The notes under the pieces were generated by a model. The model worked only from the letters and a program-made list of their open reading frames with translations, was not told the origin of the DNA and made no database searches. From Haematococcus lacustris (Eukaryota; Chlorophyta; Chlorophyceae; Chlamydomonadales; Haematococcaceae), in contig JASKMD010000029.1 of assembly GCA_030144725.1 (NCBI GenBank), forward strand, positions 15,519,135 through 15,583,134: a DNA stretch of 64,000 nucleotides, in the 5' to 3' direction. Position numbers and translations under genes: made by a program. Shown here piece after piece: positions 10,542 through 64,000 of this stretch (positions within the stretch are counted from its first letter, which is position 1; every line of letters starts with the position of its first letter).

Positions 10542-10779
10542 CAGCCATATTGTCCCTCACTAGGGCCACCATTTGAGCCGGATCAGAAGTACCTACTAGC
10601 AGCCACTATCAGCCACTAGCAGCCACTAACTAGATCCGACTCAAACAGTGTGGCTGTGTGGAGTGTTTAGCCTACCACCTACACTATTGCCTGACCCGTT
10701 AGGGCTATGATGTAGAGTTGGCATGACAAAACATGCACTAATTGTAAGCTGATGACAGCTCAAGAAGGGGGGACACACA
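10542..10779 (-). ncRNA. Candidate Fanzor guide-RNA scaffold region (copy 1)
   Basis: The ~240 bp between the Fanzor stop and the element end is conserved with copies 2 and 3 and the plus-strand remnant, although it is non-coding. It contains a hairpin with arms at 10572-10584 and 10633-10645 (TTTGAGCCGGATC against GATCCGACTCAAA, one mismatch). The terminal motif reads CCCTAGTGAGGGACAA then GGCTG on the gene strand. In TnpB and characterised Fanzor systems the guide-RNA scaffold lies at this 3' position and reads out into flanking DNA. The RNA role here is inference. Confidence 0.35.
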
Positions 10780-13700
10780 TTACTGTGCCACAGCAGGCTG
10801 CTGCTGCTGCTCCTGGGCCTTGGGGGGCTTGTCTCGCACCCGCTTGTACCCCAGGCTCAGGGTACTCCTTGCCCTTGGCTGGCAGAGCTCCCTGGTCTGG
10901 CCAGCAGCACAGCTCCAGTGGGCGCCACTTGCTCTCCCCAATGCGCTGCATGTTCAGCGCTGCATTGCAGTCCCTGTCCAGCCACCTGCCTGGCTGTGGT
11001 GCTGGCTTGGCTTTGGCAGCCTTGCCCTTGCCCTTGGTGCCCTTGAGTGGGCTCAGCTGCCGGCTTGCTGCGCTTGGCTGGAGGGGGAGTGCTGGGCCCT
11101 GGCTCTGAGGCTGCTGGCTGTGTGGCTGCCTGGCTGCTGCGTGGGGCCTGTGGGGGCTTGCGGGGGGCCACTACTGGGCACCACATCAGGCCCCGCACTG
11201 GCTGGCCACGCTCCTGGCTCCAGGCTGGGCGCAGCAGGCGGGGTTCCACCTGCCCTGCTGGGGGCTTCCAGCCTGCAGGCCTTGTGGGCACTGAGTGTGT
11301 CCAGCTCCTCCTCACAGGGCTGCTGGCCATTCACTGCTGAGCTGACCCGGCTGGTGCGGTGCTCATCCACAAGCACCACCCTGCCCCGCAGCTGGTCTGT
11401 GCCCCTGGGCCTGCACACCACCTTGCGGCAGGCACGCAACACCGCATCAGCACCCCACCCTCCCGCTGTGCCAATGGTAGCTGCTCCAAAGAAGACCACC
11501 AGCTGCTTGGCACGTTCGTGGCGCTTCATGGACAACTGCGCCATCTCTCTCTCCAACTGCAGCCATGCACACAAGGCACACACAGGGTGGCTGACATGGT
11601 GGCACCAGGTTAGGCATGGCACAGTCAACTACTCTTTCGTTTCGTGCCCAACCCACCACCTCTCAGTCCCTTACCCCCCCTCCCTCCCGCCTACCCACCC
11701 ACCCACCCTCACCTTGTTGAAGAACTGCTCCAGCGCCCGGTCCTGGGCTCCGTACAGCCTCAGCCGCTGCCGTGCCCACTTGGGGTCCAGGTACACCTCC
11801 CACACCGCATCCCAGGTGGCCAGGGTGACGGTGATGTGCTTCAGGTTGGCCTCCAGGGAGGTGCCGGCTGAGCTGGCTGCTGCCAGGTGCTGGAGGTGGG
11901 GCTTGATCGGTGCCAGCCACCGCTCAGTGTCACGGCGGGCATTGTTCAGGCCGCTGGCATGCTTCACCTCGCCCTTGGTCAGCTTCCACCGGCGCAGCTG
12001 GTCTGCCATGAGCTGGCCTGTTGCTGGATCCCACACCCCAGAGGCTGCGCTGACTGCCTGGGTGACGCCGGGGTCGATGCCCACCCCAATCTGTGTGTCT
12101 GGGTCAAACACAAACTCACGCATCTCAGCTATGCCCCTGCCTATGTGGGGGAGCCCCACTGCATGAGCCGCTGCTGCCGCTGCACTTGGGCGGCTGCTGG
12201 TGCTGCTGCTGCTGGCATCTGGAGGTGGGGCTGGAGGAGGGGGAAGGGGGCGCGTGTAGTGCACGCACACGCTGACACCGTCAGTGTCCACCAACCTCTC
12301 AAAAGCAAACCCCTGGTTGCCAAGCTTGTTGGTGTTGAACCACCTGGCCCAGTGATGGCTCAGTGCTGGCTGCTGAGGTGAATGCTGCCCGGGGTTCCTT
12401 GGTCAGGCCCAGCTGCTTGCACACCCCATGCAGCACCCTGCTGTCCACCTTGATGAAATGCACCCCCACCTGGCCATGGGGGTGAGGGTGAAGGGGGGTG
12501 GGCAGGTCAGGGTCCGGGGACCAACCCCACGCTTCTTGCCGCGCTTTGGCTGCCCTGGCACGGGGGGGGGGTGGGGCTGCTGCCACCGCTCTAGCCACCG
12601 GCACACATGCACTGCATGGCGCATGCGGCAGGGCAGGGGCAGGGTGTCCTGCAGGGAGCCTTCCTTCTTCATGCCCAGTAGGCGGCGGTGCTGTGGCCTC
12701 CTACAGGTCCGCCACAGGCCCTTGTCCAGTGGGCGGCCCAGCTCTGAGCTCTGGGCGTTGATGCCATACCCGCACGCCATCCTGATGAACAGCTGCGCCT
12801 CCTCCCCGCTCCAGCCTAGCTGGGCCCTGGCAGCCTTGGCGTAGAGCTTGACAATGCGCTCTGCAGGTCAGGTCAGGTCAGGTCAGGTCAGGTACAAGGT
12901 CAGGTAGAAGGTCAGGTTAGGTATAAGGTCAGGTCAGGTCAGGTCAGGTATAAGGTCAGGTCAGGTCAGGTCAGGGCAGGTATAAGGGCAGGTCAGGTAT
13001 AAGGTCAGGTATAAGGTCAGGTACAAGGTCAGGTACAAGGTCAGGTCCAAGTCCCGGGGTCTAGTCACCACCACCACTTGCCTGGGTTGGAGTAATGCTG
13101 CTGCATGGCCACCGCCAGCTGCATGGAGTGTGCGTCGATGGTGTTGGCGTCACCCTTGAGGTTGATGCTGCCCAGCTCATGCAGCTTGGCCACCAGCGCC
13201 TGGTTGCTGGGGTCCTCAAAGGCTGGCATGAGCATGGGGTGGCGGTGCTGAACATGGCGTCGCTGCAGCTGGTTGTAGCATGTCTTGAAGTTTGGGTTGG
13301 CGAAGAACATGCAGAAGTACTTCAGCTGTCTCAGCATCAGGGGGTCCTCACAGTCAAGGGGCAAGGGAGGGCCAGTGGGTGCTGCGGGTGCAAGGGCTGC
13401 CAGGCGGGCGCTGCAGCGCCTTTGAGGGGGCTGCGTGACTGGCTCGGGTTCTGAGTCTGACTCCGAGTCAGACTGTGGCTCTGGCTCAGAGTCACAGTCT
13501 GACTCGGAGTCAGAGTCAGTGTCACACTCCATGCTGGCAGGCTGGGCAGGGGCAGGCTGGGCAGGGCCGGGAGGGGCACGTGGGGGTAGGACGGGTAGGG
13601 GGGGAGCATCAGGGGGTTGGGGGGGCTGCACGGCTGGAGGCTGAGGGGCGCTGAGGTACCCCGGGGAGGGGTAGCCAACCAGGCATGTCAAGAAAATCCG

Positions 13701-14118
13701 CAGCACAAACAGCGACGCAATCACGCGGAGCTGGGAGTGGGTTTCAGCCCGCAGCCGGAGGTGCTCCCGCAGCTTGCGCCGCGTCTTCTTGCAGCCGCGC
13801 AGCACTGCGCCCTCGGGGACCTTGATGACCTGCAGCCAATCAAAGTTGCCATTTTGACAGGCCAAGACAAAGGCGGGGTCAACACAAACAGTGCGGGGAC
13901 ACATAAGGCGGGGACACACGGACCTGACGCCTGCTCGTTGCCCAGCCATCCCGTCGCTCCTGGCGTTGCTTGCCTTGGGCGGAACGAGACGCTGCAATGG
14001 AACCAACAGGAGCGACGGGTTATCACACAGCGCGTAGCCCACAGTAGCCCACAGTCGGCTAGGGTCACGCACCTTTCTGTTTCTTTCCCGGGTCCTTCTT
14101 GTGCTTCTTCTTAGCCAT
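10780..14118 (-). pseudogene. Fanzor (TnpB-like RNA-guided nuclease), frameshifted copy 1
   Basis: Five exons can be traced: 14118-14073, 13991-13924, 13829-13082, 12860-11713 and 11556-10780. The first encodes MAKKKHKKDPGKKQK, a lysine-rich start like a nuclear localisation signal. The third ends with a GC donor (CAG|gcaagt). Exon 3 has an acidic Asp/Ser/Glu linker and then the segment HPMLMPAFEDPSNQALVAKL. Exon 4 has TDGVSV and IGVGIDPGVTQAVSAASG (RuvC-I Asp). Exon 5 has VVLVDEHRTSRVSSAVNG and RDCNAALNMQRIG (RuvC-III Asp). Compared with copy 2 there is a 1-bp loss near 12473 and a 1-bp gain near 12376. Further frame changes lie near 11286, 11060 and 10860. The 5' gene structure seems complete, but the reading frame is broken. 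Confidence 0.8.
12864..13050. repeat. GGTCAGGT(ATAA) minisatellite in a Fanzor intron
   Basis: Irregular repeats of GGTCAGGT with interspersed ATAA or ACAA fill the intron between Fanzor exons 3 and 4 of copy 1. Confidence 0.9.
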
Positions 14119-14229
14119 CACGCGATGCGCAGTGCGACGGGCGGTGGCCTTTTCAAGCAACTTGGGTTTCCCGTGAAAAGTACACGGTTGTGTGAAAATA
14201 AGTGCTGATCACTGGGCACCTCATCAAAA

Positions 14230-14254
14230 GATGTGTCTGGGTCAAACACAAACT
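14230..14254 (-). repeat. 25-nt fragment of the Fanzor coding sequence near the 5' end
   Basis: The 25 nt at 14230-14254 are identical to 12094-12118 inside Fanzor exon 4, where they encode EFVFDPDT just before the RuvC-I motif. Here they lie upstream of the start codon next to the inferred left end. This could be a relic of an older 5'-truncated Fanzor or a copied internal fragment. Confidence 0.7.
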
Positions 14255-14263
14255 CAAACACAT

Positions 14264-14487
14264 TGTCAGCCCCTTCCCCCTGCCTGCCTGCCTGCTCCCT
14301 CCCATCCCTGAAGCATCACGCTAAGCTTGTACTCTCTTAAGCTAACCTACCCACAGGCGCCCACCACATGTTGACATGGTTGCTCCTTGCCTAGAGTGCC
14401 AGCCTGCCAGGCACGGTCTACATGTACGTCATTGACGCGGTTCACAACACTGTCTTAAGACAACTGTCTTCGACCTCTACTTGTGTG
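14264..14487. repeat. Direct repeat B flanking Fanzor copy 1
   Basis: This is the partner of 10301-10530, in the same orientation. It begins directly after the left copy of the 13-nt flank. Beyond 14487 the two copies diverge. A short tandem ATCTGTACAGTCC-AGGC motif follows at about 14507-14545. Confidence 0.85.
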
Positions 14488-14656
14488 GCACGCTTGCTGT
14501 AGCCCCATCTGTACAGTCCGAGGCATCCAATCTGTACAGTCCAAGGCGGAGCACACTCTTACTCCCAAGCGCGTCGAGCGGTCGCGCACAAGACTGCTAG
14601 CTCTATCGTGACTGGAACGACGCTGCTCCCTCGGCACCAGTGTGGGGTTGCAGGGT

Positions 14657-24819
<10,163 letters not shown>

Positions 24820-26889: not shown

Positions 26890-27148
26890 ACCTGGGCACA
26901 GAGGGCTCAGGCTGCTCTCCCGGCAATGCCTGACTCACTGCCACCATCGCCAACCCCCTCCTCCTCAAGCCCTAGATGGAAGGCCAGGGTTCAGCACGAG
27001 TGACACGGAAGGTAACGTAAGCACCTCGGCAACGCATCCCATCGCTCACTACGCCTTGGCATGGCTCTGAGGGTCTCCACTAGCTCATGGCTGGAGCCAT
27101 GAGAGTGGGCAGGACTTGTGGACGTCCACGATGTGCAGACCAGCCACG
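26890..27148. other. Intron, nothing seen
   Basis: The sequence between the exons ending near 27148 and starting near 26877 has no repeat or exon signal that I can support. Confidence 0.3.
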
Positions 27149-29031
27149 CTATAGGAGACAGAGGTCAGACTCACGGATTCAACAAGGCGCCGGCGCGTCA
27201 TCCGCAAGTCTGCCATGCCGCGAGCGTCCAGCAGGTCATGCTTCGACGGCTCGCGAATGCTGGCCGAGGAGCGGTCAGGCGAGGTGGTTGCGCTGCCCGG
27301 CAGGCTGCCGCCCATTGCGTTTCCTCCTGTGTTCTCTGCTCGTGTGTGACCGGCGCGCCTCATATGCATGTACTGCTGGTGCCGCGGCAGCGGCGGGTCG
27401 GCAAGCAGCGGTAGCTGCGCGCTGGTCGGCAGGCGGTTTGTCGGCTGGTACAGCGCGTGGGCGTAATGGCCAGGCGGAGCTCCCACAATCATATCCGTGG
27501 CAGCGCCGTCTGCGGTTCATGCAGTCAGGAGGTGTGCAGCCTGGACAGCAGACACACATCACATTGTGCAGCTGCCCTGCCAGTCGCTTGCACACAGCAG
27601 CACCTCTTTCACAGATGTGGACTCAATAGGCGTGTAGGCAGGCAGGCGGGCCTGCTGTTCCTGCACCCATCAAACATCACCACTCTCCCACCCATACCCC
27701 ACATGAGCTGACCCACATGTATCCCTCCTAACTTTTGCTCTCCCGCTTACACCCTTTGAAGGACTCTCAACCCATGAAGCTGACTAGCCTCCCTGACTCC
27801 ACCCCCCTGCTGTCACCCCACCAGTACCCCAATACCCCTCCCTACACACTCCCCCAACACCCCACTCACCTGCCCTCCCCTCGACTGCTGCAGCGCGCCA
27901 CATGAGCACGCGCCTGCGCCTGTCCAGCTTGCGTGTGACCCAGTCCAGCAGCACCTGGTTGTGCGCCAGCGCTGTCAGAAGCGCTGCGGCTCGCGCAGCC
28001 TGGGCCTGGGCTGCAGCGCGCAGGCAGGCTGGGCCAAGACCGCCTGGGGTCAGCATCCAGTGCAGACCCCCTAAGCTGTGCACCTGGTGAAGGGGTGGGA
28101 GGAGAGGTGAAGGTAACAGGCCAGGGCCAGGGTCAGGGTCAAGGGCAGGGTCAGGCACAAGGTCAGGCACAAGCCCAGCAACACTGTGCATGGAAGAGCT
28201 TGATAAGGGGGGGGCCAGCCCCATGTCTCGTGGACCAGGTGCAGAGGTGGTGGTGTGGGTGGTAGTGGTGTGTGGGGGGGGGGTGAGGGCATGCAGAGGT
28301 GGTGATGTGGGTGGAAGGGGTTGAGGGCCACCAGCGCATCACCTGCAGCAGCTCGGTGGGCGAGGTGGTAAACTCCGCCAGAGCCAAGGGCGGGCAGCGC
28401 CACACAGCCCCCAGGCAGCCAGCACCGCCCACCCCCATCATCAACCCTGCGGCAAGCCCTTGGCGGACACGCCTGGACAGCCTCCCTGCAGCCCCCTGCA
28501 GCCTCCTGTGCCCCCTGCAGACCCCCCTGCAGCCTCCTGCACATCACCCTGCTACACCGTTCATTAGTGTTAGTATCTCGCCCCTCACCCCCCTCCACTG
28601 TCCCTCTCCACCCAAACTGCTTCCTCCTCCCTCCCTTCACCCCCCTCCCTCCCTCCTTCCCTCCCTCCCCCTCGTGCTCTCCTGAATTTCTCCCTCCATA
28701 CACCCCCTCCCTTCCCTCCCTTCCTATCGCCCCCCCTCCCCCACTCTTGCACCCCCTCTTATGCCCCCTCCCCCCATCTCCTTCTCTCACCGCGCCAGGG
28801 CGTAGCCTTTGGCAGCCCCAGGCTCCCTTGAGGGCCTCCTGCCGCCCACCTCCCCGCCGCCCCCACCCCTGATGAAGCCAGTGCCGCTGCCCCTGGTGGC
28901 TCTGAGTCAGAGGGCTCGCAGCCCATGACGCGCTCCTGCAGCAGCTCAGGCTTCTGAGCCTCCCCCTCAGGGGTCAGCCCGCTCCAGTCAATGCCCTGCA
29001 CCAGTGCGTTGACAGTGGGTGGCTGCATGGC

Positions 29032-29440
29032 GGGTTCAGGAGGGGTGGAGGAAAGAAGAGCGGATATCAGAAAAAGGAAGAGGGAGTGGGGTGGGGTGGG
29101 GTGGGGTGGGATGGGGTGGGGTGGGGTGGGGTGGGGTGGGGTGGGGTGGGGTGGGGTGGGGTGGGGTGGGGTGGGGTGGGGTGGGGTGGGGTGGGGTGGG
29201 GTGGGGTGGGGTGGGGTGGGGTGGGGTGGGGTGGGGTGGGGTGGGGTGGGGTGGGGTGGGGGTGGGGTGGGGTGGGGTGGGGTGGGGTGGGGTGGGGTGG
29301 GGTGGGGTGGGGTGGGGTGGGGTGGGGTGGGGTGGGGTGGGGTGGGGAGGGGCAGGGTGGGGTGGGGAGGGGTAGGGTGGGGTGGGGAGGGGCAGGGAGG
29401 GGTGGGGGGGGTGGGGTGGGGCAGGGAGGAGCGGGGAGGG
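29032..29440. repeat. (GGGGT)n array with a conserved leader
   Basis: A ~55-nt non-repetitive leader (gggttcaggaggggtggagg onward) at 29032-29087 is followed by GGGGT pentamers to about 29350 and then degenerate G-rich units. The same leader and array start occur at 36073 onward. It lies in an intron of the large gene. Confidence 0.95.
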
Positions 29441-35800: not shown

Positions 35801-38800
35801 GCGCGACCTGCAGGGGCAGGGCAGGCCAGGGGGGGGGTTCTCATAGGGATGCGATGGGCAGGTGGGCAGGCAGGTATGATGACGGTGAAACACCCTATCA
35901 CCACCTGCCACCCTGGTAGCAGCCCTGAGCCAGGCTCCCCCAGCCCTCTTTGCTGCAGCTGTGCTGTGCTCCACTTGTCGCCCTGTGCCACGCTCCAGCC
36001 TGATCCAACTCTGCAGACTCCGACCCTGGGGTAATCATCCAGGCAGGTCGGTAGGTGGGCAGGTGGGCAGGTGGGTTCAGGAGGGGTGGAGGAAAGAAGA
36101 GCGGATATCAGAAAAAGGAAGAGGGAGTGGGGTGGGGTGGGGTGGGATGGGGTGGGGTGGGGTGGGGTGGGGTGGGATGGGGTGGGGTGGGGTGGGGTGG
36201 GGTGGGGTGGGGTGGGGTGGGGTGGGGTGGGGTGGGGTGGGGTGGGGTGGGGTGGGGTGGGGTGGGGGGGTCGCCTGGCTGACCTGCAGGCTGGTGGCGG
36301 CGTTGATGAGGTGCAGCACGCGCAGCCTGTCCCGCGCAGTCTTCATCCAGCGCAGCAGGTACAGCGCCTCCAGCTCACGCTCCTGCAGGCTAGCAGCAAA
36401 TCAACTGCCATAATGCGCATAGGATTGTGACGATTACTTTTCAAAGCAGGTTGTCAAGCAGTGGGGTGGCGGCAGCCTTTGCCCTGACAAAAGATATGTT
36501 GGCAGCCAGGCTTGGTCCTGTCTGCAGGTCATCAGTGGCCATGCCCCTGCTCTTGACCAGCCAAGCTCTTGTGCTTGAGCTCCACCCCACACCCCCCCAC
36601 ACACATGCACAAGTGGCTGGCCGCCCACCTCCAGCTGCCTCTGCTGCCTTGCACTGTACAAGGTGGAGGTGGACAGCACCCCGCCAGGGTTGAGGCGAGC
36701 AGGCGACAGGGGGCCGGAGCCAGGGCCCGGCGCGGGGGCTGTCCCGGGTCCCTGCTGCTCTCCAACCTCCTCGACGGACCAGCGGGTGGCGTGGGCCGCA
36801 GCCAGGGTGCGCAGCCTGTCCCGCACCTGCACCTCACCCAGTGTGTGTGGCAGCCCCAGGGTTAGGATTAGGCCGCCTGCTCCACCAGCAGACCCTTGCC
36901 CACAGCCGCTGCCCCAGGCTGCCCCAGGCTGCCCCAGGCTGCCCTGCCCCCCAGGCTGTCCCTGACCTGGCACAGTGGCAGCCCCAGGAGCAGCAGCAGG
37001 GGGGCGGCAGTGTGTTGCAAGCGTGCATGAGGGCAGCCCCCCCACCTGATCCCACACCCCTCACTCGTACCCTGTCTAGCCAGAACGCTGACACAAGGGG
37101 GGTCCGGGGGGAAGGCCCCTCTTATTGCCCCCAACCCTGTCTTGGGGTTACGCTGATGAGGGGGGAGGGGGGAGGGGGGGTGGGGTCCCCGTGCAGGCCA
37201 GCCCTGATCACTGGTGCTGAGTAGCAGTTGGGGGCCAAGGGCCAAGCCACGCCACCTCATCTCCCTAGGCAGCATCAATGGTAGGGAACAGCTCCCCTCC
37301 ACACACCCACACACCCACACACCCACACACCCACCCTGCGCTGAGACTCTGCTGGGGAGGGTACCCTCCTCTGCTCCTCCCCCCCCCCGACCTCCACCTT
37401 CCCCTTCCCCCCCCTGCACCCTGGCTCCCTCCCCCTCCCCCCCCCCCTGGCTCTAGCACCGCACCTGGTGCAGGTCCAGGTTGGCCAGGAAGGCGTTCTC
37501 AGCCCTCAGCACGCCATCCACCTGCAGGCCCATGGTCCTCAGGCAGGCGGTGTGCCCCGCACTGAGGTCCCCAGGGCAGGAGGGGGCCAGGGCCTGCAGC
37601 GCGCCTGGGGCAGCAGGCAGGGGGAGGGCAGGGGGCGAGGGGGAGGGCAGGGCTGAGGGGCAGGGCAGGGGCAAGGGTTAGAGCCCAGGGCGGGAGGTGG
37701 GGCTGTGAGGGAGGCAGTAGGGCCAGGTGAAGGCGAGTAGGGAGAGAAGTGATCAGAGCGGGCAAGGCGGTGGATGACTTGGGCTTCCTGGTGGACGGCC
37801 AGGCCATGCCAGGTGAGGTGAGGTGTTACAGTCAGGGCAGGGCAGGGTCCTGCTAGGCGATAGGGGACAACAATTATGAGCTGCCTGGTTGCAGGCCTGG
37901 TAGGTGCAAGCTGCACCTAGCTGCAAGCGGCAGTGTAGGGCCCCAGGGCTGGGTTCCCCTTTCCCTGCCCCATACCCTCCCCCCCTCCTCCGCCCGCGGC
38001 CTTACCCCCTACCTGTGAGGCAGTCCAGTATGACAGGAGGCTTGCAGGCAGCAGCTGTGGTGTGGGCAGCAGCAAGCTCAGCCTGCTCCCCCTGGCCACC
38101 AGCAGACCTGGCCAGCAGCGACACCAGCAGCGGCAGCGGCCGCTGAGAGCCATATCGGCCACCAAAGCAGCCACCAAAGCAGCAGCAGCAGCAGTAGCAG
38201 CAGAGGAGGCAGGGACTACAGGCAGCATCCATCCTGGCAACACCTTCCCACACTACAGCCTACTAGGCCCAGGCCCCCAGCCCCCAGCCCCCACTGCCTG
38301 GGGCGGCAGCAGCAGCCACAGCGTGCTCAAGGCCATGGCCTGGCCTGGCCTGGCTGCAGAGTGTGGTGCTGGAGCCGTGCGGGGGGGGCTGGCAGCAAGG
38401 CCAGGGCACAGCCTAGCAAGGCAAGGGCACAGGCCAAAGCAGGCCAAGCAGGCCAAGCAGGCCAAGCAGGCCAAGCAGGCCAAGCAGGCCAAGCAGGCCA
38501 AGCAAGTCCAAGCAAGGCCAAAGCAAGGCCAGGGCACAGGCTGGAGTGCTGGCGGCAGGGCCTGGGGGCTCCAGAGGGAGGGGGCCACCCACTGGGAGTC
38601 AGCAGGCTCCGGAGGGGCAGCATGAGCCATGGGCCACATGGCCTGCATGCGCTGCACCATGCGGGGCAGCAGCTTGCGGGCGAGGTAGAGGTGGCGCTGC
38701 TGCTGCACTAGGTCCCAGTCCTGCAGGGTGCGGGGCACAAGGCAGCAGGGCAGGGCAGCAGGGGGCAGGGCAGGGCAGCAGGACGTGGGCATACTGCTGC

Positions 38801-39258: not shown

Positions 39259-39299
39259 CTGCATACAGGGTACGCAGCACCTCCTGCATACAAGGGTCA

Positions 39300-43905: not shown

Positions 43906-43949
43906 CCAGCTGCGCTGACACTCGGTTCAGGCTGGACTGCCACCCAAGG

Positions 43950-44464
43950 GCAGCCCAAAGCGGTGCCAAAGCCAAGCTAGCACCGCAGCCAGGCAGGTGG
44001 CTGGACAAGGACTGCAATGCAGCCCTGAACATGCAGTGGATTGGGGAGAGCAGGTAGCGCCCACTGGAGCTGTGCTGGTGGTTGAAGCAGACAGCTCTGT
44101 CAGCCAAGGGCAAGGAGTACCCGGGCCAAGGCTACATGCGGCTGCGAGACAAGCCTCCCAAGGCCCATCAGCAGCCCGCTACGGCACAGTAGTGTGTGCC
44201 CCCTTCTTGAGCTGTTGTCAGCTTACATTAGCGCATGTTTTGTCATGCCAACTCTACACCATAGCCCTCGCGGTCAGGCAATAGTGAAGGTGGTAGGCAC
44301 TCATGCACCATGTCCATGTGCATTGGGTATACTCCACACAGCCCATTAACACTAACACCATTTGACTCGGGCCACTAGAGGTCCCTAGTATTCCCGCTCG
44401 TGATCGCTAGTGGCCACTACTGGTCCGGCTAGTTTGGAGGCCCTAGTGAGGGACAAGGGGGCTG
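43950..44464 (+). mobile_element. Fanzor 3' remnant on the plus strand
   Basis: The translation from about 43985 reads WLDKDCNAALNMQWIGES, then a stop, then PLELCWWLKQTALSAKGKEY. This matches the RuvC-III region and C-terminus of the other Fanzor copies. It is followed by the conserved 3' non-coding segment and ends with CCCTAGTGAGGGACAA...GGCTG at 44464. Everything 5' of the RuvC-III region is missing, so it is a dead 5'-truncated copy. Confidence 0.85.
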
Positions 44465-44469
44465 TTCAG

Positions 44470-45054: not shown

Positions 45055-52615
<7,561 letters not shown>

Positions 52616-52844
52616 GGTGAATGCCGCCCCCTTGCCTCCATGCACACGCAGCAGGTGGTGTGATGTGGGTGTGACAGGTTCTGGCCTGCAGTCAGCAGTG
52701 GCAAGAGCGTGGTCAGGGCGACTGAGTGGGGCTTGGCTAGGATTTGCACAGCCAGAAGGCACATGAGCTCCTGTTGCAGGATCCCTACTACCCTGATGGT
52801 GGGATCCAAGAGGAGTCTGCAGTGCCTTTCTGGTGTGACCTTGG

Positions 52845-52849
52845 TGTAA
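52845..52849 (+). terminator. Possible polyadenylation signal TGTAA
   Basis: TGTAA is the usual polyadenylation motif of volvocine-type green algae. This copy lies 230 nt after the TPR-PB1 stop codon. It is a 5-mer, so the match alone is weak. Confidence 0.35.
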
Positions 52850-52859
52850 CGACGAGGCT

Positions 52860-54007: not shown

Positions 54008-56553
54008 ATGGGGTCCACCGGCGATGGGTTCGACTTTAGCTTGTGCAAGAGGAACCAGATGATGGAGCTCAAGGGTATGCCCCCTCCCAAAGCGTGGAAG
54101 ACTGGGACGACGATTGCAGGCATTATATTCAAGGTGCGTCGCAGCGTCTGCTGTACTGGATACTCTGCGTATCTAACGATCAGTGCTACGATGCAAGCTT
54201 TCAGGATGGTGTTGTGCTGGGAGCCGATACTCGGTCGACGTCCGACACCACAGTCGCGGACAAGAACTGCGAGAAGATTCATTACATCGCGGACAACATC
54301 AGATGTTGCGGTGCAGGGACAGCAGCGGACACAGAAAGCGTCACAAGTAAGTTCACAACCCAGATCATTGCCTCTATGCCCACGTTTATACCTGGATGTC
54401 GGCCTTCCCGTTCGTAGACATGATTGCAGCAGCGCTTGAGCTACATCGATATGGGACGGGGCGGTCATCTCGGGTCATCACAGCCATGACCATGCTTAAG
54501 CAGCATCTATTCAAGTGAGCGCTGCAGATGCCCCTGGTCACTACAGCAACAGTGCTGTGAGTGGTGGTAGCACAGATTGCAACCCCAATGCCCAAGGTGG
54601 CCACCTGAGATTGCCATGCCTAGCAAACGCACATTCAGCTGTTGACCTAGCCAGGAGTGCGAGCACCATGTGGCAGCCAAGGGTGGACATCTCACCGTGC
54701 AGCAGCTGCCCACTAAGTGCAGCAGTTGACCCTGACGCTGCCTTCAGGTACCAAGGCCACATAGGAGCTGCATTAGTCCTGGGTGGAGTGGATGTGAACG
54801 GGCCCCACCTGTTCACGGTGAGCGCTGAGCCAGCACTACACACAGCTCTGCACACAGCCCAGCACCGCTTGGCATACAGCCCAATACACAGCGCAGCTGG
54901 CTGGCAGCCTTGACGGAGGTGGTGCAGGTGAAGGTAGCATGTGGCAGGGAATGACGGGGATCAGGGGTGGCGCAGTTGTCTGGAGGGTCAAGGGTTCAGA
55001 AGGCAGCACATTGTATGCTGACTGTACAGCGTGTGTGTTGGGCATGGTGTCCCTGCCATACTCGTGTCACTAGTTGGCAGTCTGGATGCCAGCTGCTAGC
55101 TGGTCTGGACTGCAGATCTACCCCCATGGCTCCACCGACTCTCTGCCCTTTGCCACCATGGGCAGTGGCAGCCTGAATGCCATGGCTGTGTTTGAGTCGG
55201 GCTACAAGGACGACCTGAGCCAAGAGGAGGCCATGGCCCTGGTGGCTAAGTGAGTGGCCGCTGCTGCCCTGTGCCGCTGCGCTGCATACCTGGTGGCTTC
55301 CGGAGTAATTAGACGGCGGCCAGTGGAAGCAGCTGGGCAAGCAGGGAAGCCAGCACACAGCCTGGGGCAAGGCAGGCAGGAGAGGTGGCACGTACCTGAC
55401 CCCATGGTGTTGCTTCAACAGCTCCAGCAGTCAAAAGCCTCGGCTGGAAGCGCCCCCTGGTTTTCAGTTTGGGTCGCCTGCGGTTCAAAGCGTCCTTCCC
55501 CCTCACTGCTCCCTCCCCTGTTCCGCCCCACCCCTGACCCCCACCCCTGCGTCCTGGCAGGGAAGGCAGCAGCAGTGGAGGCAGGAGGTACAGTGGGTGG
55601 GCGGCTCGCGAGGTGGCAGGCTAACACGGTCTTGTAGCTCAGCGTCTTTCCTGGCTATCTTCAATGTTGCATCTCATCATCCGCCATGCTCAATGGCACT
55701 GCAATGCGCTATCTTGCCATACCTTCGCCCTTTTAGTTACGGAACATACGAATTGCCGCATCCTCATCACCACCATTAACTGAATCGCCACTGCTACCAC
55801 TGTCACCATTGTCAACATTATCGTTCTCACTGCATGGCACACTTCATCGTTGACAGCATGCACTTGCAGGCATTGTCACCGCACAGCAGTCGAGCTCAAA
55901 CCCAAGCCTGGCAGCAGGGAAAGGCAGGCGATGAATTGAGCCCAGCGCCTGTGGGCTGTGTGGTGGCGGGTTGCAGGGCCATCCGCAGCGGCATCTACAA
56001 TGACCTGGGATCGGGCTCTAATGTCGACCTGTGTGTCATCACCAAGGCTGGCGCCACATACCTGCGCAACCATGAGTACCTAATGGACAAGACCTACGTG
56101 CGCAAGTTCCCTGTGGTGTACCCCAGGGGCTCCGCCAGTGAGTTAGGGGCGGCAGGGGCAGCACGGGCGGCAGGGGCGGCAGGGGCGGCAGGGGCGGCAA
56201 GGGCGGCAGGGGCGGCAAGGGCGGCAGGGGCGGCAGGGGTGGCAGGGGTGGCAGGGGCGGCAGGGGCGGCAGGGGCGGCAGGGGCGGCAGGGGCGGCAGG
56301 GGTAGCAGGGGCGGCAGGGGCGGCAGGGGCGGCAGGGGTGGCAGGGGCATTAGTGCAAGGGCTGCTGGGTCTGTCACTGCTTTGCCCCAGTGTGTGCCAG
56401 CTGTGTTTGCCAGCCTTGTTTTGTTCCATGAATCAGTTGCATGCTCTGCGTTTGCTGCATGGCTGCTGCTGCTGCTGCAGCCATTGTGAAGGAGCGAGTG
56501 CACAAGTTGACGTGCAAGTAGTTGAGCAGTCAACGGCTGAGATGGAGACCTGA
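54008..56553 (+). CDS. 20S proteasome subunit beta-2 (PSMB7-like)
   Basis: Seven exons: 54008-54133, 54205-54346, 54418-54514, 54748-54817, 55116-55249, 55977-56137 and from 56481. The product starts with a short propeptide and then KTGTTIAG, so the catalytic N-terminal threonine would be Thr34 after cleavage at the preceding Gly. [71 protein letters not shown] and [18 protein letters not shown] are beta-2 signatures; this subunit gives the proteasome its trypsin-like activity. All joins from exon 1 to exon 6 keep frame. In the last exon the frame stops at 56521, but another frame continues with [15 protein letters not shown] to 56553 and looks like the normal C-terminal tail. Confidence 0.93.
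56149..56347. repeat. (GGCGGCAGG)n minisatellite
   Basis: About 22 copies of a 9-nt unit with GTGGCA, CGGGCG and AAGGGC variants fill the last intron of the proteasome gene. Confidence 0.95.
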
Positions 56554-56652
56554 GTCGGGCCACTGGTGGTTCCTAGTATCCCCGCTAGTGGCTGCTAGTG
56601 GCCACTACTGGTCCGGCTCAAATGGAGGCCCTAGTGAGGGACAAGGGGGCTG
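56550..56652 (+). mobile_element. Lone Fanzor 3' terminus
   Basis: About 100 bp match the outermost part of the Fanzor 3' end, plus orientation: the hairpin arms (GAGTCGGGCC and GGTCCGGCTC), CCCTAGTGAGGGACAA and the final GGCTG at 56648-56652. No Fanzor coding sequence precedes it. It begins at, or overlaps, the end of the proteasome coding region, so it may form part of that 3' UTR. Confidence 0.8.
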
Positions 56653-56750
56653 CCTGATTTTAGTGGCGAGGTCCATATCGCCGAATGTTAAAACTAGTGC
56701 GGCTCACAAGTGAAACTTGCAGCTGTCGCAGCCTGGTGTTCTATACCTGC

Positions 56751-56948
56751 GTAATTGAGTTTTACTCAGTTGTAATCGTTAATAGACCTCGTTTTAAGAA
56801 TCGTTAACTGCAGCGACCTGGTGTATTAACAAAAAGTGCTCCCAACGAACATGTAACAGCCGGCCAGCACCATCGCAGGTGACAAGAAGCATCACATTGC
56901 GCGGCTTCGCCGCGCCAATAGAGCTTCGCCTACGTAAAACTCAATTAC
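56751..56948. mobile_element. Possible small element with 15-bp inverted ends
   Basis: GTAATTGAGTTTTAC at 56751-56765 is the exact reverse complement of 56934-56948. The ~198-bp interval could be a MITE. No TSD is clear. It lies directly next to the foldback element that starts at 56953. Confidence 0.45.
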
Positions 56949-56952
56949 ACTA

Positions 56953-57150
56953 GATAATGGAGTCGCCTGGGTCGTTTCAGGTGGTTGAAAAAGGCTCGGT
57001 CTCGGCCCTGGCGCGGGACAGCTCTCGACCTCAGCCAGCGGCCACGTCGCTACGCTCCGTGTCCGCTGGCTTCGGTTCTCGAGCTGCCCCGCGCCAGGGC
57101 CTCGACCTCGCCTTTTTAAACCACCTAAAACGACCCGCGACACCATTATC
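56953..57150. mobile_element. Foldback MITE with ~90-bp arms, TA-flanked
   Basis: The left half (56953 to about 57046) pairs with the right half (about 57059-57150) over some 90 bp with few mismatches, leaving a short loop near 57047-57058. The ends are GATAATGG and CCATTATC, and TA stands on both sides (56951-56952 and 57151-57152). TA flanks suggest a Tc1/mariner-type target, but the ends are not diagnostic. Confidence 0.75.
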
Positions 57151-57271
57151 TACTACATAACAGCACTCTGGAACCTGGCAAGTGTATGCGAGGAAACCAT
57201 GTTGTGCTGGCACGCGCACAACTGAGGCAGGCTTTGCAGTATTCTGTGCAGTGTGTTTTTTGGAATTCTCG

Positions 57272-57507
57272 CAGCCATTTTGTCCCTCACTAGGGCCACC
57301 ATTTGAGCCGGATCAGAAGTATCTACTAGCAGCTACTATCAGCCACTAGCAGCCACTAACTAGATCCGACTCAAACAGTGTGGCTGTGTGGAGTGTTGAG
57401 CCTACCACCTACACTATTGCCTGACCCGTTAGGGCTATGATGTAGAGTTGGCATGACAAAACATGCACTAATTGTAAGCTGATGACAGCTCAAGAAGGGG
57501 GGGCACA
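57272..57507 (-). ncRNA. Candidate Fanzor guide-RNA scaffold region (copy 2)
   Basis: The non-coding 3' segment is nearly identical to that of copy 1, with hairpin arms at 57302-57314 and 57363-57375. On the gene strand the sequence just past the terminal GGCTG reads CGAGAATTCC, which would be the guide if the TnpB model holds. The RNA role is inferred, not shown. Confidence 0.35.
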
Positions 57508-59207
57508 TTACTGTGCCACAGCAGGCTGCTGCTGCTGCTCCTGGGCCTTGGGGGGCTTGTCTCGCACCCGCTTGTAGCCCAGGGCAGGGTACTCCTTGCC
57601 CTTGGCTGGCAGAGCTCCCTGGTCTGGCCAGTAGCACAGCTCGAGTGGACGCCACCTGCTCTCCCCAATGCGCTGCATGTTCAGCGCTGCATTGCAGTCC
57701 CTGTCCAGCCACCTGCCTGGTTGTGGTGCTGGCTTGGCTTTAGCAGCCTTGCCCTTGCCCTTGGTGGGCTGGGTGGGCTCTGCTGCCTGCTCAGCCTTGG
57801 TGCGCTTGCTGCGCTTGGCTGGAGGGGGAGTGCTGGGCCCTGGCTCTGAGGCTGCTGGCTGTGTGGCTTCCTGGCTGCTGCGTGGGGCCTGTGGGGGCTT
57901 GCGGGGGGCCACTACAGGGCACCACATCATGCCCCGCACTGGCTGGCCACGCTGCTGGCTCCATGCTAGGCGCTGTTCCACCTGCCCTGCTGGGGGCTTC
58001 CAGCCTGCAGGCCTTGTGGCACTGAGTTTGTCCAGCTCCTCCTCACAGGGCTGCTGGCCATTCACAGCTGAGCTGACCCGGCTGGTGCGGTGCTCATCCA
58101 CTAGCACCACCCTGCCCCGCCGCTGGTCTGTCCCCCTGGGCCTGCACACCACCTTGCGGCAGGCACGCAACACCGCATCAGCACCCCACCCTCCCGCTGT
58201 GCCAATGGTAGCTGCTCCAAAGAATACCACCAGCTGCTTGGCACGTCCGTGGCGGTTCAAGGACAACTGCGCCATCTCTCTCTCCAACTGCAGCCATGCA
58301 CACAAGGCACACACAGGGTGGCTGACATTGTGGCACCAGGTTAGGCATGGCACAGTCAACTACTCTTTCGTTTCGTGCCCGACCACCACCTCTCAGTCCC
58401 TTACCCTCCCTCCCCCCCGCCTACCCACCCACCCACCCTCACCTTGTTGAAGAACTGCTCCAGCGCCCGGTCCTGGGCTCCGTACAGCCTCAACCGCTGC
58501 CGTGCCCACTTGGGGTCCAGGTACACCTCCCACACCGCATCCCAGGTGGCCAGGGTGACGGTGATGTGCTTCAGGTTGGCCTCCAGGGAGGTGCCGGCTG
58601 AGCTGGCTGCTGCCAGGTGCTGGAGGTGGGGCTTGATCGGTGCCAGCAACCGCTCAGTGTCACGGCGGGCATTGTTCAGGCCGCTGGCATGCTTCACCTC
58701 GCCCTTGGTCAGCTTCCAACGGCGGAGCTGGTCTGCCATGAGCTGGCCTGTTGCTGAATCCCACACCCCAGAAGCTGCGCTGACTGCCTGGGTGACGCCG
58801 GGGTCGATGCCCACCCCAATCTGTGTGTCTGGGTCAAACACAAACTCACGCATCTCAGCTATGCCCCTGCCTATGTGGGGGAGCCCCACTGCATGAGCCG
58901 CTGCTGCCGCTGCACTTGGGCGGCTGCTGGTGCTGCTGCTGCTGGCATCTGGAGGTGGGGCTGGAGGAGGGGGAAGGGGCCGCGTGTAGTGCACGCACAC
59001 GCTGACACCGTCAGTGTCCACCAACCTCTCAAAAGCAAACCCCTGGTTGCCAAGCTTGTTGGTGTTGAACCACCTGGCCCAGTGATGGCTCAGTGCTGGC
59101 TCTGAGGTGAATGCTGCCCGGGGTTCCTTGGTCAGGCCCAGCTGCTTGCACACCCCATGCAGCACCCTGCTGTCCACCTTGATGAAATGCACCCCCACCC
59201 TGGCCAT
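57508..59207 (-). CDS. Fanzor nuclease, open C-terminal two-exon part
   Basis: Two exons, 59207-58443 and 58291-57508, join in phase (FFNK|LEREMAQL) and stay open to TAA. From the N-terminal side: HFIKVDSRVLHGVCKQLGLT; WFNTNKLGNQGF; TDGVSVCVHYTRP; an Ala/Ser/Pro linker; IGVGIDPGVTQAVSAASG with the RuvC-I Asp; an arginine-rich helical region; LVVFFGAATIGTAGGWGADA; VVLVDEHRTSRVSSAVNG with the likely alternative catalytic Glu; a KRSKRTK basic stretch; and WLDRDCNAALNMQRIG with the RuvC-III Asp. The usual zinc-ribbon CxxC pairs are not seen. The N-terminal half of the protein is absent, so it is unlikely to be active alone. Confidence 0.85.
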
Positions 59208-59280
59208 GGGGGTGAGGGTGAAGGGGGGTGGGCAGGTCAGGGTCCGGGGACCAACCCCACGCCTCTTGCCGCGCTTTGGC

Positions 59281-60591
59281 GGAAGGCATGGAGGTCCGGC
59301 GCCGCTTCAGTGACTTTGATGTGAGGACCCATGCGCCATGCGGCCAAGTAACCATGCACCATGCGACCATGCTGGCTAGGATTAGAAGAAGGAACAACGT
59401 CCAGCCATGCTGCGTGATGATGATCACATAGGTCACATAGGAGCTTCCCTGGGTGCAGGACTGTGCTGCTGCTGCCCTCCCCTCCCCTCCTCCTGCCTCC
59501 ACCCATAACCCCCACCCTCTTGTCGCCAGCACCCCGCCCTTGCTGCTGCCTGCACCCCATCCCTCGCTTCTCCTGCTGCTTCCAGGCCCTGCACAAGTTC
59601 CTGCGAGGTGAATTCAGAGGACTCATCATCCCGCCCTTGCCAGAGAAGAGCTTCCTGCAGGGCAAGATGGCACAGGATGAGTAAGTGCATGGCTGCCCCT
59701 CAGCTGCGCCTCAGCCCGCACTAGCACCAGCACCAGCACCTGCACCTGCAGTCATGCCACCATCTGCCCGCCCACACGTCTGTAGAGGCCCCTCCCGTGA
59801 CCCACCGTCTGTGCTGCTCTCCTGGCCCAGCCAACTATGGACCTGGCCTGCAGTGTCCTTCCGTGGTGTGCTTGCCAGTGCGTTGGCACATGCAATGGTG
59901 GAAGGCACTACAACCTGTTCTGCTTCTCCTGTCTGCCTGCTCCTGCAGGTTCATTCGCTTGCGGCGGGCTGACCTGCAGGTGGGCTGATCAGCTGGCTGG
60001 CTGCCCTGCACAGGGCTACACCGCCCAGGGCCTGTCGAGAGTCACATATGTGCTTCACCATGCAGCTGCCCAGGTCCATGCTGCTGCTCACACGGCTGCC
60101 TGGGCTATCATGACACCGGGCACTGACCTCTGCACGCAATGCCTGAGGCCCAAGAGAGCTGCTAGCCTGGCTGGCCCACAGCAGCTGGGCAACTGGCTGG
60201 TTACTCAAATGCCAGTGGCTTCTCACACATTAGGAGCCAGAGGCCCGCTTGGGTAGAAAGAAAGAAGTAAAGAAGAAAGAAATAAAAGAAGAAAACACAA
60301 AAGAAGAACAAAGAAAAGTGAAGAAAAGGAGAAAGAAATAAAAGTAGACCTTACAGCCATGGGGCCGTCCACCAAGGCTAAGTGTGAGGCCACAGCAGTT
60401 GCCACAACCGCTGCTGCTTCTTCTGCTGCTGTTGACATGGCAGGCATTTCTGAAGGGCCTCACCCGCCATCCTGTGCTGCGCGAAGCCGAGGCCATCAAG
60501 CTGTTCCTGCTGCAGCCGGGGGAGTTGATGCGCAACCCAGCATGGACATACCTGATTCACCCCCCGCCAGGGGCCCGCGCCATGCGCCCAG
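59281..60591 (+). CDS. Sorting-nexin-like PX domain protein, 5' end lost
   Basis: Exons 59281-59320, 59586-59680, 59949-59979 and 60444-60591 join in frame to give MEVRRRFSDFDALHKFLRGE, then PPLPEKSFLQGKMAQDEF, then IRLRRADLQAFLKGLTRHPV and LREAEAIKLFLLQPGEL. This is the core of a PX (phosphoinositide-binding) domain. RRFSDF, the PPLPEK loop and the RR..L..FL..L helix are all present. Such proteins act in endosomal sorting. The first exon is cut at its 5' side by the Fanzor copy, so the beginning of the domain is missing. After 60591 no BAR domain is found. A short possible last exon (60812-60881, ending MKDDVGPKRGH) fits in phase. Confidence 0.8.
60256..60348. repeat. Purine-rich AAGAA tract
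   Basis: An almost pure A/G tract with GAAAGAAAT and AAGAAGAAA units lies in the intron before the last PX exon. It is conspicuous against the GC-rich surroundings. Confidence 0.85.
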
Positions 60592-60879
60592 GTACACACC
60601 AGGTTGGGTGTTTCAGCGCTAAATCTAACACCTAATACTTATTACCTGCTACCTGTTACCAACTACCTATACCGAGCCTACACTAGAAAGTGCCATATCC
60701 TAGAGCTTGCCTTGGGCTATCGAATCCTTGCTTTGCAAACCGCGCTACTGCACATTGCGCTATTACCAGCGATATGTAAACTGAGATTTTGTATGGAATT
60801 CTCGCAGCCCAAGCTCAAGTATCAGCGGCTGCAGCAAATGGCATGAAAGATGATGTTGGTCCAAAGCGTGGTCACTGAA

Positions 60880-61480
60880 GCACATTAGGCAGTAGCCATT
60901 ACAATTACATCAGAAAGCGCCGAGGCATTGCTGGAAATTGCACACCAAATTTGCTACCAAATTGCACACACCAGAATGGCTAAGCTGGAGTGGGCAGTAG
61001 GCACATTAGGCAGTAGCCATTACAATGTTGAGCTTGCAACCTGTGTTTGATTACAAGTCTTGCTACGTAGGAGTAATTACTTTATTTTTTAAATGCGGGG
61101 CTGGCTGAAGCGTGGAGCCTTGCCCTACGCTTCACGATGTTGGCGTGATCGCAGCCTGTTGCGAGAGCAATGCAGACTTCCTTCATCCATTTTGCACGTG
61201 GTGTGGAGGGCTTGAGCCTAACGTGCAACTGTGCAAAGGCTCTGGCTGTGAGCTGGCGCATCATTTCCTCGCAGGTTCCAGCTTTACTCACTTCTGCTGG
61301 TAAGAGAAGTCACCGGCTCACTTGAAACAACAATGTGGACAAAGGGGATGTGTGTGGTTTTGAGCTACTAGGGCTCTCGCAACAGGCACACACTGCCTGT
61401 TGCGAGAAGGCTGAGCTGAAGTGGACATTAGGCAGTAGCCTTTACAATGATGAGCTCGCAGCCTGGTTCAATTCCAACTC
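60880..61480 (+). repeat. Three copies of a SINE-like motif
   Basis: CATTAGGCAGTAGCCATTAC recurs at about 60884 and 61001, and with one change at about 61425. The second and third copies continue with a TGAGCT-GCA-CCTG block. The third copy then has GGTTCAATTCC, which fits a tRNA B-box. This could be a tRNA-derived SINE family or a local tandem repeat. No complete tRNA cloverleaf is claimed. Confidence 0.45.
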
Positions 61481-61854
61481 ATGCTTTATTTTGGTGTAGC
61501 ATGAGGGCTGTGGGGTTCGGGAGTTGGTAAGAGAGAACCACAGTACATTCCATGCATGGTATTGCAGGCAGGGCGTCGCTCGCTTCTGGCGCTGTGGACA
61601 TGGGCCCTGTGCTGCAGCAGCTTGTGCGCAGCAGCACCCAGCCTGGAAAGCAAGGCTCCACCGCTAGTTTGGGTCCCGGCACCAAGGCCAAGGACCTGGT
61701 GCAACCTGGATGCAAGCCAGCTTCTGGCACCAAGCAAAGTGCCTCTGAAGCATCAGACACACAGGAGCCACACAGTAGCATCAGCAGGCCTGACGTTGAT
61801 GGTCTTGTCGGTGCACATGATACTCACCGCCTGCACCTGTTGTCCCTCATGTAG
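61112..61854 (+). CDS. Hypothetical Cys-rich protein, two possible exons
   Basis: The stretch 61152-61300 follows a good acceptor (gatcgcag) and precedes a good donor (gtaagag). It reads CCESNADFLHPFCTWCGG, then LCKGSGCELAHHFLA, suggesting a small zinc-binding domain. A second open stretch at 61552-61854 reads IAGRASLASGAVDMGPVLQQ and a Ser/Gly/Pro-rich tail to a stop. I cannot name it, and the antisense frame is also open, so the coding strand is not certain. Confidence 0.3.
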
Positions 61855-61859
61855 GCGCC

Positions 61860-62756
61860 GAGTTGACCAGCCGAGTTGACCAATCACACAGCTCACGCTG
61901 CCACCCTGTACTATACCGCCATCAAACATGGATGAGATGGGGTGTGGACCCAGTGCTGGCTATTGTAAGAATGGTGCAAGCACGAGCAGCAACGGCATGT
62001 GGACCAGGAACGACTGAATGCATTGTTTGCATGGCAGCACCTCCCTCATCACCACACTCACCATCACTTAATGCCACTCCAGCCCTCAGTCTCCACCACT
62101 GCCTAGCCCAGGCACACGGTTCCAGCTCATGCTCACACCACCTGCAGGACTGCGTGGCCCTATGCCTACCCGCATGCCTCACCTGCCTCACCTGCCTAGC
62201 CTGCCCAGCCACCACAGGTCCAACAGCTCACAGCAGCACCTCCTCATCAGCCCGCAAAGGCAAAAGCAGGTCTCCTCGCTAGGGGTGGTATTTCATCTGT
62301 GTGGAGCTATGTTCCCGTGCACATGGCTATAGCTGGTGACAGCTCAAGGGCTGCTGCGAATGCAGGTGCTGCTGGTGGTGCAGGCAGATGTGGTAGTGGA
62401 GTGCGGCTCCATAGTATGTCTGACAACAGCATGCGGCATTGGTGGCCTTGACTTGTTTACAGGCACTCTAGCAAAGTCCAGGTCACACTGTCGGTGACTG
62501 CAATGCTCATCCCTATGGGCGTTGAGGAATGAGGTGCATCGAATTCCTATCATTGTATGAGTCCACGCCCACTACACCAGCGCAGACTTGCATCCATGAT
62601 GGCATCAACCTCACCATCCATTGCCAATTGACTTCAGACCAAAGCTCAAAAATAGAGCATTGGGGGTATGTCAACCAGCCCACCTCACCTATGGCTTATG
62701 CTGTTCATGTGCACCAATGATCAGGTTGTGCTTGCCTCCGTGGGACTCGGCAGGTG
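61860..62756. other. No supported gene
   Basis: Short open frames on both strands show no domain-like composition or convincing splice sites. The stretch lies between a hypothetical Cys-rich gene and Fanzor copy 3. Confidence 0.35.
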
Positions 62757-64000
62757 CAGCCCCCTTGTCCCTCACTAGGGCCTCTATTTGAGCCGGACCA
62801 CCAGGGACCACTAGTGGCCGCTAGCAGGAATACTAGTGACCACTAGTGGGCAATAGTCGCCCGACTCAAGTGGTGTTAATGGTTGTGTGGAGTATACCCA
62901 GCACGCATGGACATGGTGCATGAGTGCCTACCACCTACATCATTGCCTGATCCCTGAGGGCTATTGTGTAGAGTGGGCATGACAAAACATGCGCTGATTG
63001 TGAGCTGATAACAGCTTAAGTGTGAACACACACCATTGTGCCCCAACAGGCTGTTGTTGCTGCTGTTGCTGTGGGCCATGGGTGGCTTGTCTCGCACCCG
63101 CTTGTAGCCTAGGCCAGGGTACTCCATGCCCTTGGCTGGCAGAGCTGTCTGCCTTGGCCACCAGCACAGCTCCAGCGGGCGCCACCTGCTCTCCCCAATG
63201 CGTTGCATGTTCAGCGCTAAATTGCAGTCGTTGTCCAGCCACCTGCCTGGCTGTGGTGCTGGATTGGCTTTGGCAGCCTTGCCCTTGCTCTTGCCTTCGC
63301 CCTTGCCAGGTTTGGTGAGCTACACTACCTGTTATGCCTGGCTCTGAGGTTGCTGGCTGTGTGGCTGCCTGGCTAGTGCATGGGGCCTGTGTGGGCTTGC
63401 GTGGGGCCACTACTGGGCACCACATCAGGCCCCGCACTAGCAGGTCACGCTGCTGGCTCCATGCTGGGCGCAGTAGGCGTTGTTCCACCTGCCCTGCTGG
63501 GGGCTTCAAGCCTGCATGCCTGGTGGGCTGCTCATGGTCCAGCTCCTCCCTACATGGCTGCTTGCCATTCACTGCCGAGCTGACCCGGGTGGTGCGGTGC
63601 TCATCCACAAGCACCACCCTGCCTCGCCGTTGGCCTGCGCCCTTGGGCCTGCACACCACCTTGCAGCAAGCACGCAACACCGCATCAGCACCCCACCCTC
63701 CCCCAGTGCCACTGCCAGCTACGCCAAAGAAGACCACCAGCTGCTTGGCATGCCCATGGCGCTCCATGGACACCTCCGCCATGTCCTTCTTCAGCTGCAG
63801 TTATGCACACAAGGCACGCACCATCTCCCAGTCCCTTACCCTCCCTCCCATGGACACCTCCCACCACCTTTCAGTCCCTTACCTCCCTCCCACCCACCCA
63901 CCCTCACCTCCTTGAAGAACTGCTCCAGCGCCCGGTCCTGGGCTCCATACAGCTTCAGCCGCTGTTGTGCCCACTTGGGGTCCAGGTACACCTCCCACAC
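62757..64000 (-). mobile_element. Fanzor element, copy 3 (cut by window end)
   Basis: The 3' terminus CAGCC is at 62757-62761. The end is more like the plus-strand remnant than copies 1 and 2, for example CCCCCTTGTCCCTCAC and a longer hairpin segment. The element reaches the last base of the window within exon 4, so its 5' extent is unknown. Confidence 0.85.
63010..64000 (-). pseudogene. Fanzor nuclease, copy 3, partial and frameshifted
   Basis: Coding similarity runs from the window edge (LYGAQDRALEQFF, exon 4 end) through MAEVSMERHGHAKQLVVFFG, VVLVDEHRTTRVSSAVNG and VRGLMWCPVVAPRKP to WLDNDCNLALNMQRIGES and the C-terminus. The Pro/Ser linker near 63330 is shortened and out of frame with the RuvC-III block. 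Within that block RDCNAALN has become NDCNLALN, although the key Asp remains. The copy looks inactive. Confidence 0.75.

Follow-up and report, generated by a model that had tools for sequence, protein, structure and literature searches.

A multicopy family of elements with a common 3' end and a Fanzor1-like gene in the green alga Haematococcus lacustris

Copies in the window and across the genome

The stretch analyzed here (the window, to which coordinates below refer) comprises 64,000 nt of Haematococcus lacustris, contig JASKMD010000029.1, positions 15,519,135-15,583,134, and holds five places that share one exact 3' terminus, the 16-mer CCCTAGTGAGGGACAA. Four of these five places carry Fanzor1-like coding sequence, decayed or truncated. 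The 16-mer lies on the minus strand at 10550-10565, 57280-57295, and 62765-62780 and on the plus strand at 44441-44456 and 56629-56644, an exact match each time; together with a self-BLAST of the window, this confirms the first-pass annotation of this DNA, which had recognized five loci with a common 3' end. The features are as follows.

10547..14258, minus strand: copy 1, bounded by two target-site duplications, with 5' filler, captured flank, five exons (frame broken), 3' untranslated region, and terminal hairpins
14259..14271, minus strand: copy 1, 5' target-site duplication, GGCTGACAATGTG
14232..14256, minus strand: copy 1, 5' junction filler of 25 bp, identical to element-internal 12094-12118
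14171..14194, minus strand: copy 1, conserved 5' terminus (CACACAACCGTGTA... after TTTT)
14073..14118, minus strand: copy 1, exon 1, placed by homology to intact copies
13924..13991, minus strand: copy 1, exon 2
13082..13829, minus strand: copy 1, exon 3, followed by a GC-AG intron
11713..12860, minus strand: copy 1, exon 4 (TDGVSV, IGVGIDPG), frame broken
10780..11556, minus strand: copy 1, exon 5 (VDEHRTS, RDCNAALN), frame broken
10542..10676, minus strand: copy 1, 3' subterminal hairpin, CCCT/AGGG mini-hairpin, ACAA-TAT, and GGCTG junction; putative guide-RNA scaffold
10534..10546, minus strand: copy 1, 3' target-site duplication, GGCTGACAATGTG
57277..59280, minus strand: copy 2, 5'-truncated at 59280, with an open exon 4 part (58443-59280) and an open exon 5 (57508-58287)
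62762..64000, minus strand: copy 3, decayed, leaving the window at its edge
43944..44459, plus strand: remnant, a C-terminal coding end (DKDCNAALNMQ) plus the 3' end
56551..56647, plus strand: lone 3' end without recognized coding sequence

In the self-BLAST, copies 1 and 2 are 96.2% identical over 2,024 columns, copy 3 matches copy 1 at 84.3% and the remnant at 81.0%, and the lone end matches the remnant at 87.3%. The recent spread proposed earlier fits copies 1 and 2 alone (96%); copy 3, the remnant, and the lone end are more diverged (81-87%). Similarly, the set of motifs at first ascribed to four copies is divided among them: TDGVSV and IGVGIDPG occur in copies 1 and 2 but neither in copy 3, which reads VDEHRTT and DNDCNLALN, nor in the remnant, which retains DKDCNAALNMQ only.

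The genome searched amounts to 307.9 Mb in 597 contigs, and PMC10400597 gives 316.0 Mb for the published H. lacustris assembly, in which the longest scaffold measures 21,607.0 kb and transposable elements make up 50.8%. In the genome searched, 2,957 copies of the 16-bp terminus were counted and none of the same 16-mer read backwards, so a chance origin of the common terminus is excluded; its density in the window is ~8 times the genome mean. The exon-4 frame of copy 2 was recovered at no fewer than 131 scored places (out of 6,981 first-look candidates) at 92-100% identity, some of them with stops. A search for protein relatives returned 645 at E<=0.001, of which the best 120 were all from H. 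lacustris and all annotated as hypothetical; a second search gave 630 matches, the best 120 again all from H. lacustris. Copy number and the source of these best relatives bear out the earlier proposal of a multicopy family in an algal host, and Fanzor-like copies account for hundreds of public H. lacustris protein models. A description of this family was not found in the literature searched, mostly open-access papers. Several public H. lacustris models (P0005, P0008, P0045, P0054, P0058, and others) show Fanzor pieces fused to unrelated domains and are either gene-prediction chimeras or insertions in host genes.

The Fanzor1-like protein and its gene

Across 155 relatives, the motifs follow the order IGVGIDPG, VDEHRT[ST]RVSSAV, and RDCNAALN. 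At RuvC-I, DPG is found in 130 of 131 stretches and DSG in the remaining one, and G.G.DPG is present in 126 of the 155 proteins, the others being without the stretch or without a match. The rearranged glutamate is represented by 173 DE..T[ST] stretches in 147 of the 155 proteins (109 TS and 64 TT), usually as VDEHRTSRV followed by S-S-A-V at the place of the CxxC, which here reads SxxV, with the second pair reading CPVV. At RuvC-III, RDCN occurs in 156 of 160 stretches and RDCN[AS]A in 138 of the 155 proteins. Relative P0061 has 187 residues between D356 and T544, the Fanzor1 range from the first D to TS being 125-275. In the available text of PMC10711439, Fanzors are recognized by DPG plus a glutamate six residues ahead of the first CxxC, and a C4 zinc finger is reported in many TnpBs and Fanzors; the corresponding text of Bao and Jurka (PMC3627910) describes the finger as strictly conserved in Fanzors. 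On its motifs, the protein is Fanzor1-like, and we label it a Fanzor1-like variant because the C4 zinc finger is absent; a RuvC fold is neither shown nor refuted. The Fanzor identity proposed by the first-pass annotation thus stands as regards motif order and register, as judged against the PMC10711439 signatures, and is weakened by the missing finger and a marginal profile test.

That test, a profile search of the TnpB and Fanzor families proposed together with the identification, used PF07282 and gave marginal scores, mostly below cut-off. Window frames and P0061 fell below it, whereas P0015, P0122, and P0130 were slightly above, with no single stretch passing alone; 15 of 47 family members matched at E<=0.1 (best 0.0029), and a six-frame search of the genome returned no match at E<=0.001. 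There was no useful match in NCBIfam or PADLOC and one very weak "transposase" match in PHROGs at the RuvC-III end (E 0.46); viral contigs gave three pattern matches, none confirmed, and phages none. Residues 1-110 of P0130 (VTVDEFRTS) and 85-285 of P0122 (MGMGLDPG) are pieces of more divergent Fanzor-like lineages in the same genome.

With splice sites set from the copy 1 anchors, 13 loci, corresponding to 11 distinct places (two pairs being identical), were assessed for gene structure. Intact five-exon proteins are encoded at the two fully read places, L032/L010 (928 aa) and L033/L013 (930 aa), which answers the call for a full-length open copy elsewhere in the genome. L003 and L004 are open from exon 2 onward, the frames of L005, L017, and L018 are broken, and no gene model was obtainable for L009, L019, L026, and L027. 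At L032, the element 5' end at 1931-2116 recurs 4.4 kb downstream at 6326-6500, identical in stretches, as either a second copy or a tandem arrangement. The donor of intron 3 is GC. The public models P0013 and P0034 omit the end of exon 3, perhaps through failure to recognize this donor. In copy 1, intron 3 (12861-13081) is a minisatellite with units CCTGACCT / CCTTATA.

Selection was assessed on exon-4 segments of 891 bases, of which 26 of 30 were open and used and 4 were dropped. The median ratio of nonsynonymous to synonymous substitution rates (dN/dS) was 0.28 over 324 of the 325 pairs of the 26 open copies, with a median dS of 0.079, and the copies compared show purifying selection on the Fanzor-like protein.

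Element ends, insertion sites, and other repeats of the window

The 5' end reads TTTT and then CAC.CA (CACACAACCGTGTA...) in 25 of the 32 ends read; its ACAC/GTGT stem, judged by eye, is only 4 bp. Upstream of this terminus, many copies have captured sequence in common, in differing lengths; at the 5' side, copies may be truncated, may carry additional captured flank, or may end in filler; the filler of copy 1 probably arose by a template switch. The 3' end has a fixed order of a long hairpin, the CCCT/AGGG mini-hairpin, ACAA, and three bases, and no poly-A or simple-repeat tail was seen at any of 30 3' ends read. The 158-nt 3' end of copy 1 folds at -72.4 kcal/mol as compared with -46.6 +/- 3.7 kcal/mol for 200 mononucleotide shuffles; that of the remnant takes a different fold (-55.7 kcal/mol). 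In the outer stem, two pairs are changed on both sides, in 5 cells over 26 rows, a cell count found in none of 500 shuffles; the RNAalifold consensus was poor on the first alignment, so these counts refer to a named structure that was derived from the same sequences and is hence favored. Rfam gave no match on the window. At the foot of the hairpin, an internal CAGCC is predicted to pair with GGCTG in the folds of L002, L013, and copy 1, and no compensating change was found for this pairing.

The target word mostly follows the terminus: NNNGGCTG comes after 2,417 of the 2,957 genome termini, and GGCTG adjoins the 3' end in 26 of the 30 ends read, the later bases being without preference by eye. 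Target duplications of 13-19 bp were found in 9 of the 20 copies with both flanks, eight of them beginning GGCTG and one CTG, as compared with 1 match of at least 12 bp in 378 mispaired flanks. The duplication of L017 was scored 18 as its preceding G matches too. For L020 and L013, the 5' windows searched were moved by 16 and 40 bp to take in duplications seen earlier, and L009 and L016 had flanks shorter than 90 bp in this search. The possibility that GGCTG is sequence of the element alone was discarded, the word being present in the left flank of eight of the nine duplications and CTG in that of the ninth. The first-pass annotation had drawn the element boundaries so as to take in GGCTG, which for copy 1 is part of the target, and they are corrected here. 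No clear target duplication was found for copy 2. The 230-bp direct repeats flanking copy 1 (10294-10528 and 14257-14481, 86%) were rejected as a long duplication, being too diverged, whereas the 13-bp duplication is exact.

The trinucleotide between ACAA and GGCTG is GGG in an older clade and hypervariable in the young subfamily. Sister copies of the young clade differ, with GCA in L008 and AGG in L018 (support 100/99) and TAT in L004 and GAG in L005 (88/97). Nearest neighbors agree in 2 of 15 cases (shuffles as high: 0.77), and over all 27 rows 11 agree (0.05). Mapped on the tree with all labels, the trinucleotide requires 11 changes as compared with a shuffled mean of 14.8 (1 of 200 shuffles needs as few), the clustering being mainly via GGG. 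The sample of ends is biased toward the young subfamily; of the first 100 places listed genome-wide, 91 read GGG, so hypervariability of the trinucleotide characterizes the young subfamily. Copying of these bases from the target was rejected, as in the duplications read they do not match the left flank.

Other repeats of the window include an imperfect palindrome of ~200 bp between copy 2 and the lone end (56951-57152; 81.6% self-inverted), with a predicted folding energy of -101.8 kcal/mol for a 210-nt stretch, a 213-bp direct repeat at 29018-29230 and 36062-36270 (96.2% identity; another dispersed repeat), and related short-period tandem repeats at 8724-9110, 19256-19681, 22160-22405, and 45809-46050.

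Mode of spread and comparison with known systems

All 30 loci examined retain the border between exon 4 and intron 4, and none is spliced; a spliced RNA is thus unlikely as an intermediate, and copying at the DNA level is most likely. Taken together, these data probably describe a large DNA transposon family of H. lacustris, apparently non-autonomous and 3'-anchored, whose only recognized gene is the five-exon, ~930-aa Fanzor1-like gene without a zinc finger. One-ended copying would begin at the 3' end and proceed 5'-wards until failure; such copying, as proposed by Bao and Jurka for the CRe elements in the text of PMC3627910 at hand, fits because the 3' end is fixed and the 5' ends are fuzzy. 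The mobilizing enzyme would act in trans and would most likely be of the HUH (Helitron2-like) kind. By analogy with SpuFz1, the transcript of the 3' hairpin may serve as the Fanzor guide RNA, with the flanking target as guide; the Fanzor would then cut the empty allele, and the break would be repaired from the occupied one.

Several results weigh against this interpretation. Among the 20 copies with both flanks, 11 have no duplication of at least 12 bp (L005, L006, and L029 show uncounted flank matches of 9-10 bp, and eight further copies less). Because GGCTG lies within the duplication, each such insertion has it on either side, which excludes it as a target-adjacent motif lost on insertion, and no other conserved word was seen by eye ahead of the nine duplications. 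The number of outer-stem pairs changed on both sides was equaled by 49 of 500 shuffles. The five closest exon-4 pairs reach dN/dS values of 0.33-1.08, and drift may therefore affect many tips. Of the 18 PF14214 matches to the Helitron Rep in the genome, 12 loci were inspected (1.5-kb flanks, plus 6 kb downstream of one) for a transposase with the shared ends, and none was found there, the Helitron ends not being reached. As to the protein, the C4 zinc finger (DE..T[STA]..C..C) is found in none of the 155 relatives, a sequence and profile search of the PDB gave no match (for P0130, two irrelevant weak ones), and the structure prediction earlier proposed for placing the acidic residues lends no fold support, two AlphaFold models with 47 and 79 family sequences being unusable (predicted local distance difference test 39.6 and 47.1). 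An unrelated algal protein whose motifs only resemble those of Fanzors would account for these protein results and for the mostly subthreshold Pfam scores, but DPG, a glutamate exactly six residues ahead of the first-cysteine place, and RDxNAALN follow the Fanzor order and register (PMC10711439, as available) in a setting that matches the CRe Fanzor1 elements, which makes this explanation very improbable.

Target-primed reverse transcription characteristically leaves 5' truncation, duplications of variable length, a constant 3' end, filler sequence where the 5' end joins the target, and a fixed word at the target. Spread of this SINE/LINE-like kind (short or long interspersed elements) would explain the combination of duplications with 5' truncation, the filler of copy 1 copied from within the element, and the hypervariable trinucleotide at the young-subfamily 3' junction, which resembles non-templated addition; set against the unspliced state of every locus tested and the tailless 3' ends, it is unlikely. 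Alternatively, the copies could be dead amplified repeats in which the Fanzor gene is a functionless passenger spread by host recombination or segmental duplication, as broken and lone-end copies might indicate and as is the case for some loci, L014 and L020 being segmental duplicates with an identical 3' flank; however, distinct flanks with target duplications, purifying selection, and intact frames render this improbable for the family. We retain a 3'-anchored DNA transposon family as our interpretation. With ~3,000 ends, intact copies, and readable duplications, this genome offers more material than do the families described from Chlamydomonas and Mucor in 2013 and bears on how eukaryotic Fanzor elements move and how the nuclease benefits them; a Fanzor without the zinc finger would serve as a natural experiment on this domain.

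Among known systems, CRe-1, CRe-2, and CRe-3 of Chlamydomonas reinhardtii, as described in the available text of PMC3627910, resemble the family in being green algal elements with a multi-exon Fanzor gene (five exons in CRe-1), 5'-truncated and 3'-overabundant, with hairpin ends and, in some, extra captured 5' sequence. CRe duplications are described there as mostly 7-19 bp, chiefly at truncated copies, and, unlike those of H. lacustris, which begin GGCTG with no T-rich word ahead, follow just after TTTT or a T-rich word. The three CRe families are given 150, 70, and 35 loci as compared with 2,957 termini in H. lacustris, and the strictly conserved C4 zinc finger of the Fanzors in that paper, with CRe compared by description only, is absent here. 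MCi-2 of Mucor circinelloides, a Fanzor1 element left unclassified in the same account, likewise has a near-identical 3' part, differing 5' ends, and duplications that start with a fixed word (11-12 bp, ATAATTNNNN(N)), but it differs in the word itself, in its fungal host, in its 11 loci, and in the partial Crypton gene of one subfamily. As with SpuFz1 and other DNA-cutting Fanzors (Saito 2023, PMC10432273, in the text available), the 3' end following the gene would supply the guide RNA; SpuFz1, on the other hand, has a CCCC zinc finger and an element with inverted repeats, whereas cleavage activity is only predicted for H. lacustris.

In the bacterial IS608 and its IS200-IS605 relatives, the foot of a subterminal hairpin carries a few bases that are complementary to the target word. 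The CAGCC/GGCTG complementarity at the hairpin foot is of this kind and suggests, by analogy, a possible target choice by base pairing, although no TnpA was found in the H. lacustris family. A 3' subterminal hairpin is also shared with non-autonomous Helitron2, and the 30 unspliced loci and 30 tailless ends set the family apart from a non-LTR (long terminal repeat) retroposon. We give little credence to a bolder synthesis in which CRe, MCi-2, and the H. lacustris family would form a distinct eukaryotic transposon type, anchored by a 3' hairpin whose CAGCC foot would pair with the target GGCTG and whose RNA would also guide a Fanzor without a zinc finger, the three bases before the target word being rewritten at nearly every insertion of the young subfamily. 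The best reading is that the family is of a kind known from CRe, Helitron2, and MCi-2 and that what is new here is another target word together with a Fanzor lacking the zinc finger.

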